Assembly (NCBI GenBank): GCA_937891465.1
Contig: CALAHF010000223.1
Location: 1 to 34,580 of the forward strand
Source: an uncultured Verrucomicrobiales bacterium
GTDB taxonomy: Bacteria > Verrucomicrobiota > Verrucomicrobiia > Verrucomicrobiales > DEV007
Direction of reading: 5' to 3'
DNA length: 34,580 nucleotides
The notes beneath the pieces are model-generated. The model was not told where the DNA came from. It did not search any database and saw only the letters and a list, made by a program, of their open reading frames with translations. Positions 1,117-33,422 of this stretch are shown here, one piece after another; positions within the stretch are counted from its first letter, which is position 1, and each line of letters begins with the position of its first letter. A program made the position numbers and the translations under genes.

Positions 1117-1165
1117 TTCACGATCCAACAGGGTCGATTCATCGATCAAATACTATTGGATCGTG
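1117..1165. repeat. Palindromic element copy 1
   Basis: This is a member of the dispersed ~50-bp palindrome family. The outer arms CACGATCCAA (1119-1128) and TTGGATCGTG (1156-1165) are perfectly complementary over 10 bp. The centre retains ACAGGGTC and a TTCATCGA-type loop. It lies between the hydrolase start and the 3' end of the propeller gene, so it forms most of the hydrolase leader. Confidence 0.85.
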
Positions 1166-6252: not shown

Positions 6253-7185
6253 ATGATCGATACCCTCCCAACAAACGGCCCTTTCGATCTCGCCGCGACG
6301 CTCAATTCAGGACAAGTTTTTCACTGGAATGAGCATTCCCACAATTCTCATTCGGGATTTCTTGGGACAATCGGTGATGCCCCCACCTTTCTCGCTCAAA
6401 TTGGTGATAATCAAATTTTCACGATCCAACAGGGTCTGTTCGACGAATCAACTGGGTTGGATCGAAACGCTGAAAATCGCCCTCACGATCCAATAGGGTC
6501 CATTCATCGAACGAACCCTGTTGCTTCGTATTTAGCTCTCGATCAGGCCGATGCAGATATCCGCGCAACTTTCCCTCAGAACGATCCGTTTTTTGATTCC
6601 GCACTCAATTATTGTCCGGGACTTCGAATTTTGCATCAACCGATGTGGGAGTGTCTCGCCACTTTCATCACGTCGTCATTAAAACAAGTGGCTCACATTC
6701 GGGACATTTCTCTGACCCTTCGACGCAACCACGGGACGCGGCACGAATTTTTGGGTGAGGAGCTTTTTGCCTATCCCACTCCTGCAGCACTCGCTGAAGC
6801 GGGCGAGGCCAAATTGCGCGCCTGCGCCCTCGGATATCGTGCTAAATCGCTCCACTTAACCGCTGCGGCGATTGCCGATGGCTCCATCGATTTGGCGGAA
6901 CTCGACAGCATCGAAGATCACGCTGAGGCCGTGAAATTTCTCTGCCAGTTTCACGGCGTTGGCGAGAAAATTGCAAATTGCGCGCTCCTGTTTGGAGCGA
7001 ATCGATTGGGCGCATTTCCGATCGATGTATGGATCGAACGCGTCCTCCGGCAGGGATATCGGAAGCGGGTGAAGGGCGCGAAATTACAGCGATGGGCGGA
7101 AGGTTATTTCGGCCCCTACGCTGGATACGCACAGCAGTTTTTGTTTCACTACGGCCGAGTTGGCGGCTTAGGTAAAAACTCATAA
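6253..7185 (+). CDS. OGG1-type 8-oxoguanine DNA glycosylase/AP lyase carrying a repeat-derived insert
   Basis: The 310-residue protein matches the OGG1 family. The N-terminal domain has the FDLAATLNSGQVFHW motif (11-25). The helix-hairpin-helix/GPD region reads GVGEKIANCALLFG, with the catalytic lysine at K239 and the activating aspartate at D258 in AFPIDVW. The family excises 8-oxoguanine from DNA and nicks the abasic site through a lysine Schiff base. Residues about 56-93 do not look like the family. They are encoded by two adjacent copies of the dispersed palindromic element (6417-6530) read in frame, placed between a beta-strand (LAQIGDNQI) and the usual Y-LALDQADADI segment. The catalytic core is intact, so the enzyme is probably active. 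The gene stands alone, with yraN downstream on the same strand. Confidence 0.85.
   Translation: MIDTLPTNGPFDLAATLNSGQVFHWNEHSHNSHSGFLGTIGDAPTFLAQIGDNQIFTIQQGLFDESTGLDRNAENRPHDPIGSIHRTNPVASYLALDQADADIRATFPQNDPFFDSALNYCPGLRILHQPMWECLATFITSSLKQVAHIRDISLTLRRNHGTRHEFLGEELFAYPTPAALAEAGEAKLRACALGYRAKSLHLTAAAIADGSIDLAELDSIEDHAEAVKFLCQFHGVGEKIANCALLFGANRLGAFPIDVWIERVLRQGYRKRVKGAKLQRWAEGYFGPYAGYAQQFLFHYGRVGGLGKNS
6417..6467. repeat. Palindromic element copy 2, inside the glycosylase gene
   Basis: This copy starts TTTTCACGATCCAACAGG, continues with the loop CTGTTCGACGAATCA, and ends with TTGGATCGAAA. The outer arms CGATCCAAC and GTTGGATCG pair perfectly over 9 bp. It is read as FTIQQGLFDESTGLDRN with no stop. 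A 15-nt spacer separates it from copy 3. Confidence 0.9.
6483..6530. repeat. Palindromic element copy 3, inside the glycosylase gene
   Basis: This copy starts TCACGATCCAATAGGGTC and ends AACCCTGTTGCTTCGTA. Relative to the element consensus it is read in a different frame from copy 2, giving HDPIGSIHRTNPVAS, also without a stop. Together with copy 2 and the spacer it spans 114 bp, which is exactly 38 codons. Confidence 0.9.
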
Positions 7186-7945: not shown

Positions 7946-8029
7946 TGCTCACGAGAGGACTCGAACCTCCACGGGTATAACCCCACTAGAACCTGAATCT
8001 AGCGCGTCTACCAATTCCGCCACGTGAGC
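7946..8029 (-). tRNA. tRNA-Leu(CAG)
   Basis: Read on the minus strand, the acceptor arms GCTCACG and CGTGAGC pair over 7 bp. The anticodon arm is CTAGA-TTCAGGT-TCTAG, giving anticodon CAG. There is a long type II variable arm, and the T-loop reads GGTTCGAGTCC. The length is 84 nt and the CCA end is not encoded. It lies between yraN and the antiporter pseudogene. Confidence 0.95.
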
Positions 8030-8112: not shown

Positions 8113-9895
8113 TCACTCCGGCATATCGGACAAATCCACTTCACCCAGAATCGTCGCAAAACTGACGATCGTGTCGCCGTCAGCTGCTGGAGGCGACTCG
8201 GAGGTGATTACGTCAGTTCCCCTGCTTTGCGAATGATGAACATGGGCAACACGTCTTCGCCGTTTCGCTCGATGAAATTCTCCTGCATGAACTCATCCGT
8301 AATCGGCGTGAGCTTGGCTTCAGATTCGGTGACTTCGAATTTTTTGATTTGCTCGCTGGTAATATTTTCCCCCAGAATGCTCGGCGTCAATGGGCTGGAG
8401 TTGATAAACGTTAGAACGGCCCAAAGCATGAGCAAAGCCGATGCAGGCAAGCGAGTTTACTTGATCGTTTGGCGTCACCGCTAGCATTCGGCCGATGCCG
8501 GAAAGGTCGATTTCCTCGATCACGAAATCTGAAATCGCATTGGCCGTGACTGCCGGCACCCCGGCCATTCGCGCATTTTTGGTGGCGCTATAATTGGCAT
8601 CAATAATTAAAATCCGGAAACCCGCTTCCTGCAATGCGACGCCCATTTTGATGGTCCAATCGTTTACCCCGGCAAAAATAATGCCCTGAGGGTTTGGTGA
8701 AGCGAGCCCGAGTTTTCGGGCAATCGGAGCAGCAAGAAGTCCATAAAACGTAACGGTTCCAAAAATAATGCTGAATACGACTGGCACGATTTTCGCCGCT
8801 TCTTCCGCGAAGGGACCCGCGGTTTGAGCAAGCTCCAATGCAAAAATAGCCGACACTGCCGCAGCAACAATTCCGCGCGGCGCAAGGAGAGCAAGAAAGA
8901 CTTTCTCGGGAAGCTTCAGATCGGTTCCTATCATGCTGATGAATACGGAAAGCGGACGAATCACAAAAATCAGCGCAGCAATGAAGAGGAGTGATTCCTT
9001 CCAAACGGCCACAATTTCATCAAGACCGACACGACCACCCAGAACGATGAACAAACAGGAAATAAGAATGACGCGGAGGTTTTCTTTGAACTCGACGATG
9101 TGCCGCACCGGCGTGTGATGCTGGTCGGCGAGGCCGATCCCTAAAATCGTCACAGTAAGCAATCCAGACTCGTGCTGGAGTAGATTTGACACAGAAAAAA
9201 GCGCGAGGCCAACCGCGAGGAGAAAGACGCTTTGAAGATAATCCGGAATCCAGTGCCGACGCAACACCGAGACCAGCAGCTTCGCCGCGACATAGCCAAA
9301 ACCGACGCCAATCAGTAAAGTTGCCCCCAGATTGAGCCCGGTTTCTTTCCAGGACGCAGAGTGATCGCCGTGTCCAAAAACGACGCCAAAAACGAGCACG
9401 GCGAGGATTGCCCCGATCGGATCGATCACGATACCCTACCATTTTAGAATCGAATCGAGATGCCGCTTCGGCCGGACATTACGCAGCAACGGCCCAATAA
9501 CCGTTGGTCCAGTGACAACAAGAACCGCCCCAATGAGAGCTGAGAGCTGAGACCTGCCAGCTAAAATTGGCCAAATAATGCAGCGCAGTCATCGACAATC
9601 CCCAGGTCACTGCTGCGCCAACGCTGATAAGCCGTAGCAATGGCTTCCCCGCATCCTTCAAATCGCGGAAGTGAAGCGTCAGGCCGTCTTCTAACATGAT
9701 CACTGCAACCGAAAGCGAGACGACCGCAAAAAGGACATCACTTTTTACAAACTCCGTTTGATCATAAAATTGCCCGGCGATAAAACCGAATACGAGCAGC
9801 GCCAAAATGGAAGGAAAACGAAATTTCCACGCCAGCCATTGCGAGAAAATGCCGAGCAGAATAACGGAGCTGAAAAAGATAAGCCAAATTTCCAT
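8113..9895 (-). pseudogene. CPA1-type cation/proton antiporter with TrkA_N-like domain, decayed
   Basis: Reading across frames reconstructs a Na+(K+)/H+ antiporter of the CPA1 family: membrane helices from MEIWLIFFSSVILLG onward, then a nucleotide-binding domain (PQGIIFAGVNDWTIKMGVAL) and a C-terminal domain ending LGEVDLSDMPE. Four lesions break it. A 7-bp tandem duplication near 9535-9550 (TCTCAGC twice, then TCTCATTGG) shifts the frame after FSWQVSAL. An amber codon at 9436-9438 replaces the residue expected in the ILKW-E-GIVIDPIGA motif. A G-run near 8370 has one base too many after DAEHSG. One base is missing near 8212, between RKAGELT and VITSESPP. Each segment is otherwise well conserved, so the inactivation looks recent, or part of it is sequencing error. 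Confidence 0.85.
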
Positions 9896-10030
9896 GAGGG
9901 GAACGGGTGTCCAAAAAATTGAGGTGAGTTTCCCTCAGTCCTGCGCAAAGACAAAGGAAACGTGAAGCATAGACGAAAACTTCACGGGTCTATTGCAGTG
10001 ATTTCGCATCTTCTGCTACGGCGTAAATTT

Positions 10031-10082
10031 TTCGAAACCACAGGGTCTGTTCGACAAATCAACCCTGTTCGTTCGTGAAAAC
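10031..10082. repeat. Palindromic element copy 4
   Basis: This copy runs from TTCGAAACCACAGGGTC through the loop TGTTCGACAAATCA to AACCCTGTTCGTTCGTGAAA. The inner arms ACAGGGT and ACCCTGT pair. It lies between the antiporter start and the dnaB stop codon, about 8 bp from the latter, in a ~195-bp spacer with nothing else recognisable. Confidence 0.85.
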
Positions 10083-13315: not shown

Positions 13316-13389
13316 CGGAATGTGGCGCAGTTTGGTAGCGCATCACACTGGGGGTGTGGGGGTCGCAGGTTCAAATCCTGTCATTCCGA
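13316..13389 (+). tRNA. tRNA-Pro(GGG)
   Basis: Acceptor arms CGGAATG and CATTCCG pair over 7 bp. The D-arm GCGC-GCGC and T-arm GCAGG-TTCAAAT-CCTGT are normal. The anticodon loop is CTGGGGG, giving anticodon GGG. The length is 74 nt and CCA is not encoded. Confidence 0.94.
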
Positions 13390-13870: not shown

Positions 13871-13920
13871 TACGAATCAACAGGGTCTGATCGACAAATC
13901 AACCCTATTTGATCGTGAAA
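13871..13920. repeat. Palindromic element copy 5
   Basis: The sequence runs TACGAATCAACAGGGTC, loop TGATCGACAAATCA, then ACCCTATTTGATCGTGAAA. It sits in the divergent gap between the NfeD-like gene and the M14 peptidase gene, so it overlaps the likely 5' leader of at least one of them. Confidence 0.85.
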
Positions 13921-21468: not shown

Positions 21469-21522
21469 TTCACGAACCAACCCTGTCCATTCATCGAACG
21501 CACCCTGTTCGTTCGTGAAAAC
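21469..21522. repeat. Palindromic element copy 6
   Basis: The outer arms CACGAAC and GTTCGTG pair, and the right half ACCCTGTTCGTTCGTGAAAA matches the consensus. The left inner arm reads AACCCTGTCC where other copies have AACAGGGTC, so the inner stem is lost or inverted in this copy. Confidence 0.8.
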
Positions 21523-22516: not shown

Positions 22517-24063
22517 ATGATGGAACGCTCGATCGCGTTATCGGTACGTATGCTGTGTTTTGGCATTGGTTGGCGGAGGTTCAGTTTGACGCTAATGTAT
22601 TGGGCGGCGTCGCGAGCCTATGAGGATGGGGTTCGTCAGCAGATTCTTACAATCGGGACAACAACGGCCACGAGTCTGGACGGGCAGCTGGTTGAGACGC
22701 TGGCAAAGGACAATGACGACTCGGTTCGACCGCGCCTCGCAAATCGACTGACGGGAATTTGGCAGGTCCCTGCGGGCGCCGAAATCGAGATGTCGCTTCA
22801 GCTGGTGGAAAAGACTGGTAACAGTCTGGCAAGCGTCCTTCTACGGACATGCAGGTCGTGAAAGAGACGATGGCTTCGAATGCGGAGATTGAGTCTGCTT
22901 TTGAGGAACGCCCTAAATCGTCCGGACTCAAGCGAGAAGTGCCATCTCGTACTCCGTTCGACAAATCCCGACAGATGTTTCTTGAGGCTTTCGGTAAAAG
23001 TGTTCCGGCGAATATTTCAGCAGCGGGTCCTATTAAAAACGGATCTGAAATTGTTGCCGTTCTTGCGATGCAGGGTCGAGTGCGTCCGGAAAATTTCGCG
23101 TGGTATTCGCTTCTAGGATGAGAGCAGCTACTCGTTCTAGCAGGTTTGATCCCCGGACTACTGGCTTTGTTTTGGGTGGGATTCGGAATTTCGAATGAGT
23201 TGAAGGGATTGCAAAACGGAATGGAGACGGTTGCTGAAGGTTGTTACGATTTCCGCCTCCCTGAAAATGGACCCACTGAATTCCAGTCAGTCCATATCAT
23301 CTTCAACAAGATGGCTGAGAGTCTTGAGGCAAGTAATGTGAAGATCCACAACTCGATCGAAGAGATTCAAGTGGCTCGCCAACAGGCTGAAGTGGCAAAA
23401 GAAGCGAAATCCGATTTCCTGGCGAACATGAGTCATGAAATTCGCACACCGATGAACGGCGACGAAAAAAACCACTTGGTGCACCTTTTATACAAACCTG
23501 TCAGCGAGCTAAAGTTGATGCGTGCGCTCGTCGAAGTGCTCCATCACTCCGTCGGCACAACGATTCCAGCGAGTTTGATGCACACTTCCGCAGACGGTGG
23601 TGGAACCACAGTTGGCAAATTCGCCGACCAACACGCAGCGCAAATTCTCGTTGTTGAGGACGTTTTGATGAACCAAAAAATCGCCTGAATGGTTTTGCAA
23701 AAACTCGGTTACGAAAACATTCTCTTTGCCAACAATGGCGAGGAAGGTGTCGAAAAAGTCCTCGCAGGTGGCGTCGATTTGATTTTTATGGACCTCCAAA
23801 TGCCGGTGATGGGCAGGATTGATGCGACCTTGAAAATTCGCGAGAGCTTCCACCTTGAACGGCAGCCACTGATCATTGCAATGACCGGCCACGCTCTGGC
23901 AGGTGTGAAAGACAGCTGCCTCCAGGCAGGAATGGATGCTTACATTACCAAACCGATCAGCGTGGATGATGTGAAGCGTTCGTTTGCCGAAGTTTACAAC
24001 AAAGCAGCCCACGCAACCGCCACGACCGCGAACAGCGCGAACGCCCCGTTCGCCCAAGCGTGA
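22517..24063 (+). pseudogene. Hybrid sensor histidine kinase, decayed
   Basis: The remnant reads as sensor region, membrane helix ([17 protein letters not shown]), HAMP domain ([16 protein letters not shown]), coiled coil, H-box ([16 protein letters not shown]), the end of one receiver domain ([19 protein letters not shown]) and a second receiver ([14 protein letters not shown], then LIFMDLQMPVMG, TKPIS). Lesions are a frameshift near 22845 (one base missing before MQVVKETMAS), an in-frame TGA at 23119, a large internal deletion after the H-box at ~23460 that removed the rest of the dimerisation domain, the ATPase domain and most of receiver 1, and a TGA at 23686 inside receiver 2. It cannot act as a kinase. 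The receiver after 23689 might still be made if a start is used there, but I think this unlikely. Confidence 0.85.
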
Positions 24064-26000: not shown

Positions 26001-26051
26001 TTACGAAGCAATAGGGTAGGTTCAACGAATCATCCCTGTCTGTTCGAAAAC
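26001..26051. repeat. Palindromic element copy 7
   Basis: The sequence runs TTACGAAGCAATAGGGTAGG, loop TTCAACGAATCA, then TCCCTGTCTGTTCGAAAAC. It is the more degenerate half of a tandem pair and sits 17 bp after the DUF6428 stop. Confidence 0.8.
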
Positions 26052-26054
26052 GGA

Positions 26055-26106
26055 TTTCGATCCAATAGGGTACGTTCGATGAACCTACCCTGTTGCTTCG
26101 TGAAAA
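26055..26106. repeat. Palindromic element copy 8
   Basis: The sequence runs TTTCGATCCAATAGGGTACG, loop TTCGATGAACC, then TACCCTGTTGCTTCGTGAAA. Inner arms AGGGTA and TACCCT pair exactly. It ends 6 bp from the atpC stop codon, so it lies in the 3' end of the atp operon transcript. Confidence 0.85.
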
Positions 26107-28965: not shown

Positions 28966-29003
28966 CAGGGGCTGTTCGATGAACGAACCCTACAAATTCG
29001 TTT
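28966..29003. repeat. Palindromic element copy 9 (core only), inside the atp operon
   Basis: AGGGGCTGTTCGATGAACGA then ACCCT keeps the inner stem and loop of the family, followed by ATTCGTTTTA. The left outer arm is not recognisable. It fills most of the 61-bp gap between the atpA stop and the atpG start. Confidence 0.65.
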
Positions 29004-33220: not shown

Positions 33221-33270
33221 TCAACGAACCAACAGGGTCTGTTCGACGAAGATACCCTATACGTTCGAAA
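33221..33270. repeat. Palindromic element copy 10
   Basis: The sequence runs TCAACGAACCAACAGGGTC, loop TGTTCGACGAAGA, then TACCCTATACGTTCGAAA. The arms CGAAC / GTTCG and AGGGT / ACCCT pair. Confidence 0.85.
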
Positions 33271-33375: not shown

Positions 33376-33422
33376 CGATTTGGCAGGGTTCGTTCGTTGA
33401 ATCAATCGGGTTGGATCGAAAA
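33376..33422. repeat. Palindromic element copy 11
   Basis: The sequence runs CGATTTGGCAGGGTTCG, loop TTCGTTGAATCAA, then TCGGGTTGGATCGAAAA. The right arm GGGTTGGATCGAAA matches copy 2 closely. It ends 8 bp from the stop codon of the Gfo/Idh/MocA gene. Confidence 0.75.

Follow-up and report, generated by a model that had tools for sequence, protein, structure and literature searches.

A gene for a DNA glycosylase contains, in frame, two adjacent copies of a palindromic repeat that is also found between genes in the same stretch of DNA. How did the repeat come to form part of a protein, and what kind of element is it? Dispersed bacterial palindromes are usually regarded as selfish or as local RNA signals. 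The window, the whole stretch of DNA that we have analyzed (34,580 nt), corresponds to the complete contig C223 of a 5.97-Mb draft genome (G000).

The glycosylase and its insert

The gene and its insert have the following features:

6253..7185, + strand: gene for an OGG1-type 8-oxoguanine DNA glycosylase (open reading frame, Pfam, PDB matches, invariant columns)
6417..6469, + strand: first repeat copy, read as FTIQQGLFDESTGLDRN (nhmmer match 6419-6465, 51.6 bits)
6429-6435 and 6451-6457, + strand: half-site cores of the first copy, ACAGGGT and ACTGGGT, 22 bp apart
6470..6480, + strand: spacer separating the copies (19 nt when measured from the nhmmer borders)
6481..6533, + strand: second repeat copy, read as PHDPIGSIHRTNPVASY in another frame (nhmmer match 6485-6530, 48.5 bits)
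6493-6499 and 6515-6521, + strand: half-site cores of the second copy, ATAGGGT and ACCCTGT, 22 bp apart

The open reading frame codes for 310 amino acids, with a TGA directly before its ATG. Its identification as an OGG1-type enzyme is confirmed by the Pfam domains OGG_N (1.2e-11) and HhH-GPD, and also by its AlphaFold model (mean pLDDT 89.7), which matches solved 8-oxoguanine glycosylases; the best match is 3f10 (E 4.9e-19). K239 and D258, which we take to be the catalytic Lys and Asp, are invariant in a 26-row alignment.

The original prediction that residues ~56–93 are encoded by two adjacent repeat copies holds, and the window contains 10 copies of the family in register. Both glycosylase copies are free of stops and are read in two frames, as the open reading frame and the codon phases of the cores indicate (phase 2 for ACAGGGT at 6429, phase 0 for ATAGGGT at 6493). 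The 114 bp from 6417 to 6530 are indeed stop-free; on the other hand, their equivalence to exactly 38 codons depends on where the borders are placed, and the net gain is 24–26 residues.

The interval between G41 and Y93 has 52 residues here, 50 in G001, the only genome of the same genus that we have found, and 26–28 in the 24 other aligned orthologues. It has 28 residues in 11 further genomes of genus g2, and 26–32 in 66 of the 79 named relatives measured, some of which are the same genomes as in our numbered set. These relatives come from a search with an alignment, which kept 80 named relatives of 582, mostly Verrucomicrobiota; a scan of genome contigs with the single protein found no relative. 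In G001 the doublet occupies the corresponding position (47.0 and 32.4 bits); the insert is thus not confined to the genome of the window. Relatives had been expected to lack residues 56–93: this is true outside the genus, in the sets we have compared, and fails for G001. Two findings that would have spoken against an insertion did not occur. No close relative with the insert has a genome free of the element, G001 is full of them, and the segment does not align normally with distant OGG1 proteins: orthologues outside the genus are without it. Since the glycosylases of both species carry the doublet (their identity is 67%), its gain is older than the split between them.

As anticipated, residues ~61–88 are modelled, with low confidence, as a loop at a distance from the catalytic residues. 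The pLDDT is below 50 at residues 65–69 and 71–85, between a strand (54–59) and a helix (89–93); this counts little as evidence of disorder, because only 2 of the 26 alignment rows inform that stretch. Translation of the insert probably yields a disordered surface loop without effect on catalysis, and the enzyme would stay active in spite of it.

The same loop is long (35–67 residues) in 13 of the 79 measured relatives. Long-loop loci include L129, L132, L133, L135, L137, L139, L152 and L175, at about 2109–2290 of each locus (510–641 in L175). Their extra DNA is strongly palindromic in some cases (z of −7.0 in L133, −4.2 in L132 and −3.9 in L175): 12 of the 13 were folded, with z ≤ −2.4 in 5 and not in 7. 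This DNA does not match the repeat family of the window, and nhmmer (E 0.01) did not detect the element at any of the 80 named-relative glycosylase loci. As a lead, other palindromes may have landed in this loop repeatedly.

The repeat family

Allowing up to two mismatches, CGATCCAACAGGGT has 645+598 matches in the whole genome, whereas its backward control has 3+6. We have sampled about 14% of G000 (834,580 bp), namely the window and 40 stretches, each of 20 kb, taken from eight contigs; an iterated profile detects 171 copies in this sample, which extrapolates to about 1,200 copies per genome. The consensus copy is 46 bp long and a doublet about 100 bp. Each repeat has two (sometimes one or three) quasi-palindromic units of 22 bp, approximately TCGAnnCAAC(AGG or CCT)GTTGnnTCGA; the cores ACAGGGT and ACCCTGT differ only in the AGG or CCT at the middle of this palindromic unit. 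The phase is practically fixed: the distance between cores is 22 bp in 108 of the 109 copies in which both are recognisable with one mismatch. Overlapping profile matches indicate three-unit and partial forms. Doublets are frequent, with 35 of 162 neighbour gaps of 20 nt or less (0.7 expected), 22 of them with a 7–9 nt spacer. The doublet folds as a hairpin (z −4.85, DNA parameters), and the first copy in the glycosylase folds to −18.2. The orientation of the units, in 127 copies with up to two mismatches, is FR in 87, FF in 20, RR in 19 and RF in 1: their order matters, which counts against a simple orientation-blind site. We saw no bias with GC skew or transcription strand in the 39 copies whose units have the same orientation.

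The pattern ACAGGGT-N{10,20}-ACCCTGT appears 93 times in G000, 537 in G001, 64–162 in four genomes of genus g12 and 1–73 in g2 genomes. The other genera searched have 0–1 per genome, like the control (58 genomes). The family spans three genera (g1, which includes G000 and G001, g2 and g12), and its consensus differs from genus to genus.

The other copies in the window, together with its tRNA genes, are the following:

1120..1165, − strand: intergenic copy (nhmmer, 43.5 bits)
7946-8029, − strand: tRNA gene (Rfam at gathering scores)
10030..10076, + strand: intergenic copy 14 nt downstream of dnaB (nhmmer); G001 and G012, a g12 genome, likewise have one downstream of dnaB
13316-13389, + strand: tRNA gene (Rfam at gathering scores)
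13871..13916, + strand: intergenic copy upstream of an NfeD-like gene (nhmmer), present there in G001
21472..21518, − strand: intergenic copy (nhmmer, 42.2 bits)
26001..26101, no strand assigned: intergenic doublet downstream of atpC (nhmmer), with an element there in G001 and G012
28966..28999, + strand: degenerate copy in the atpA-atpG spacer (nhmmer, 19.8 bits)
33224..33268, + strand: intergenic copy (nhmmer, 42.7 bits)
33384..33420, + strand: intergenic copy (nhmmer, 31.9 bits)

Rfam at gathering scores finds nothing in the window but the two tRNAs. By eye, two open reading frames at 8320-9895 (− strand) resemble the two parts of a single cation/proton antiporter, lying in different frames through a frameshift or an assembly error, and several short adjacent ones at 22595-24063 (+ strand) resemble fragments of a hybrid sensor kinase gene that may be broken. 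The contig ends (34523-34580) in a perfect tandem array of the 7-bp repeat CTAGCTT, with 8.3 copies.

Most copies in the sample are intergenic (140 of 171, with the glycosylase pair wrongly among them), 23 overlap gene ends and 8 lie inside genes. Our rough gene finder set the glycosylase start too far downstream, and this pair was re-counted by hand as genic. Predicted genes make up 88.6% of the sample. There are 33 copies in 14.7 kb of convergent spacers, 79 in 47.1 kb of tandem ones and 28 in 26.2 kb of divergent ones. The median distance is 14 nt from the gene 3' ends which have a copy within 300 bp (n=126).

Many positions are shared between species. Four of the eight intergenic places in the window were tested in G001 (3' of dnaB, 3' of atpC, atpA-atpG and 5' of nfeD), and all four have a copy; the matches in the atpA-atpG spacer are weak (18.7 bits in G001, 17.1 in G029, 11.6 in G035). 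We have also drawn 28 clusters at random from 75 candidates. The flanking gene is found in G001 for 21 of them and missing for 7; three second-best gene matches were left out. A counterpart near the same gene end is present in 10 of the 21, always within 70 bp, one of them weak (16.4 bits). As a base rate, 237 of 1,390 gene ends in G000 have a copy within 300 bp, and 165 within 70 bp; scaling by 1.25 for density, the excess of shared positions has P=0.007 for the 300-bp window, which was set beforehand, and P=0.0004 for 70 bp. The other 11 copies have no counterpart within 300 bp, which means that turnover is real. Copies at shared positions have a likeness of 0.705 (8 of the 10 pairs, those in register), versus 0.684 for random cross-species pairs. 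They are no more alike than random pairs, so copies this old, if neutral, would be expected to have decayed: in this family, position outlives sequence.

Copies inside genes and spacing along the chromosome

Open-frame listing combined with Pfam and NCBIfam finds in-frame copies in eight further genes in the 14% of G000 sampled: CysS, PanC, PyrD, DnaE, NfeD, LdtF, a DUF1501 protein and a HEAT-repeat PVC protein. The LdtF/DpaA-type carrier was identified below its curated cut-off. We have left out copies close to the N-terminus of CrtC-like and PSD1 proteins, since they may precede the true start. Frame-specific Markov scores on 150-bp flanks, used with a threshold, were discarded as too strict: they missed the glycosylase itself.

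G000 and G001 have the site in common in six of seven testable genes (glycosylase, CysS, DUF1501, LdtF, DnaE and NfeD). It is absent in PyrD of G001, and PanC was not found in this genome. In g12, CysS and PanC carry the site in all four genomes and PyrD in three (it is absent in G029). DnaE has it in G012 and more weakly in G029, with 9.7 bits in G023, and a HEAT protein of G012 has it in the same context. Paired cores (up to one mismatch) are found in PyrD in four of seven g2 genomes. The glycosylase and NfeD sites are absent in g12 and confined to the genus of G000 and G001; the LdtF site is also absent in g12 and limited to the genus, save for a weak trace in the g2 genome G078. DUF1501 appears to be highly multicopy: a query containing one DUF1501 gave 36–101 matches per genome in six relatives. 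Nearly all of the matches listed fell on this piece of the query, whose dozens of paralogues crowded out other genes; for DUF1501 we have kept the best rows of six genomes only.

NfeD has a net gain of 14–26 residues. PanC and CysS carriers are not longer than most non-carriers, with no net length change, so a genic copy does not necessarily mean an added segment. In the PanC model, the encoded residues (215–229) run from the end of one helix through a turn into the following one.

Within these genes, the cores are also constrained at synonymous positions. In 18 genic sites with up to one core mismatch, the codons match the cores at a log10 probability of −2.8 to −3.9 each, given the codon usage of the same genes. 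At codons for the same residue, the third base within cores is identical in 27/27 cases in CysS, 23/23 in PanC and 52/52 in PyrD (102/102 in total), versus 58%, 56% and 57% outside the cores; the comparisons cannot be treated as independent, and presence of the site was the reason for choosing the PyrD genomes, those for CysS and PanC being all four g12 genomes. Genus profiles give a mixed picture: for the six genic copies of g1 and the three of G012, without exception, the best fit is to the profile of their own genus. In the other g12 genomes, three genic copies fit their own profile best and four of seven fit g1 better (PanC in G023, G029 and G035, CysS in G029), with a g12 profile built from 18 copies of G012 alone.

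Copies are evenly spaced along the chromosome. The 133 clusters in G000 have a mean interval of 6.26 kb and a CV of 0.59, versus 0.86–0.88 for random allocation to spacers, and only 2 of 124 intervals are below 1.5 kb (about 20 expected). None of 2,000 simulations is as even under each of three nulls, and five stricter nulls agree. The situation is similar in G012, with 57 clusters, a CV of 0.45 versus 0.87, and none of 53 intervals below 3 kb (12.6 expected). In G000, genic copies are farther from intergenic copies than random genic points are (4.05 versus 2.22 kb, P=0.005, n=9). Such gap-filling is not significant in G012 (P=0.157, n=10), where some predicted genes look spurious.

Possible explanations and known systems

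On balance, we favour a dispersed DNA site of a Verrucomicrobiota lineage, REP-like but constrained and regularly spaced, some of whose copies write protein segments. Even spacing, a 22-bp phase (about two helical turns), positions kept despite turnover and synonymous conservation fit a site which is bound as DNA. Roughly even chromosomal intervals would be kept by selection, or by a drive which renews the sequence in place. Most copies lie in intergenic spacers, many near gene ends, and some in tolerant parts of proteins (loops, linkers, stretches after a signal peptide), where the open frames of the site would write about 15 residues per copy. The glycosylase of the genus ancestor gained its doublet in the loop between strand 54–59 and helix 89–93. 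A putative protein would bind the site, most likely for chromosome organization. A more specific version is possible, and we propose it tentatively: a class of chromosome-organizing sites with paired 22-bp units and a predicted lineage-specific binder every ~6–9 kb, in which selection on spacing would be strong enough to put sites into essential enzymes, at the cost of changed residues, wherever a suitable spacer is lacking.

A selfish palindrome, similar to Rickettsia palindromic elements (RPEs) or MITEs, would insert anywhere, and its genic copies would survive only when in frame and harmless. High copy number, doublets and stop-free frames agree with this explanation, as do the residues gained by the glycosylase and NfeD, the long loops in glycosylase relatives, with hairpins in 5 of the 12 folded, and the in-frame REPs described for Opitutus terrae in an excerpt of PMC3733652. 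We nevertheless find it rather unlikely. In 77 isolated copies there is no target duplication: the longest word shared by the flanks averages 3.51, versus 3.47 for the null. GTAG and CGTC tags do not exceed random levels at copy ends: of 136 full-length copies, they mark 10 and 11, versus 8 and 21 at random places. No intact RAYT (Y1 transposase, PF01797) was found in G000, with one match with an internal stop, or in G001, with one partial match; genomes of g12 and g2 have more, with 3–18 matches in the seven other genomes searched. Tags, target duplications and an intact RAYT are all lacking in G000, which speaks against a REP/RAYT or MITE cycle that is still running; the original spread of the repeat may have followed such a route. 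Even spacing, and shared positions with turned-over sequence and synonymous-site conservation, also go against a selfish element: target immunity could yield even spacing, but not shared codon positions.

The original prediction likened the insert to RPEs. The likeness is correct as far as in-frame palindromes which add a protein segment are concerned. It does not extend to the entire family: few copies are genic (8 of 171, plus the glycosylase pair), at least PanC and CysS have no net length change, positions are shared across species and in some cases genera, cores are held at synonymous sites and spacing is regular. Taken together, these features suggest a DNA site that is maintained, and not a selfish repeat that inserts freely.

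DNA uptake sequences have dialects, and a similar signal might accumulate by molecular drive, through preferred uptake of site-bearing DNA, with one dialect per genus. Our consensus also differs between genera, PanC and CysS look as if their sites had been built by substitution, and uptake sequences are also placed in tolerant coding regions, according to an excerpt of PMC1939737. We give this explanation little credit, as the site is about 46 bp long, mostly paired and palindromic. Least probable of all is an RNA element, a transcribed hairpin near stop codons which would tune mRNA stability or translation, as proposed for REPs: closeness to 3' ends, higher density between convergent genes and the folding of the doublet are in its favour, but the two units point the same way in 39 of 127 copies, which removes core pairing (outer arms can still pair), these copies have no strand bias, and it predicts neither even spacing nor sites inside genes.

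The dispersed site that we favour combines regular spacing with many positions kept between species, and some between genera, despite sequence turnover, so whether such repeats serve the chromosome becomes testable. It suggests that a demand at the DNA level dictates residues of CysS, PanC and PyrD, and in the glycosylase loop the gain of a new protein segment is dated before the split of two species in a genus.

A literature search, which included few subscription journals, found no report of this repeat family, its spacing or its positional conservation across genera. In-frame residence of palindromes is already known in Rickettsia (PMC10969869) and in Opitutus terrae (PMC3733652), as stated in excerpts of these papers. 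RPEs are described in the former excerpt as palindromes of about 150 bp, nearly half of them in open reading frames, read in frame in unrelated genes. Judging from their sequence, our repeats are also found in frame inside unrelated genes and add predicted peptide segments. They are set apart, by description, by a 46-bp unit, a doublet of about 100 bp and a mostly intergenic location; even spacing and synonymous-site conservation, found here, are not mentioned for RPEs in the excerpt. Like the uptake sequences DUS and USS, our repeats have many copies and are tolerated in non-critical coding regions; unlike them, they are much longer, paired and palindromic, with a spacing more even than the excerpt of PMC1939737 grants uptake sequences.

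Our repeats agree with REPs in a wide sense: a short palindrome with high copy number, intergenic bias and dimers. The GTAG/CGTC families of REPs and BIMEs, which include those of Opitutus terrae, another member of Verrucomicrobiota, are small, numerous, mostly intergenic, near 3' ends and often dimers, as described in the excerpt of PMC3733652. The same source reports intragenic REPs in O. terrae, many of them in DNA-repair genes, and as in our case some are in frame in genes for DNA repair, replication and tRNA synthetases. Unlike REPs and BIMEs, the repeat described here has a fixed phase of its 22-bp units, even spacing along the chromosome and positions conserved across genera.
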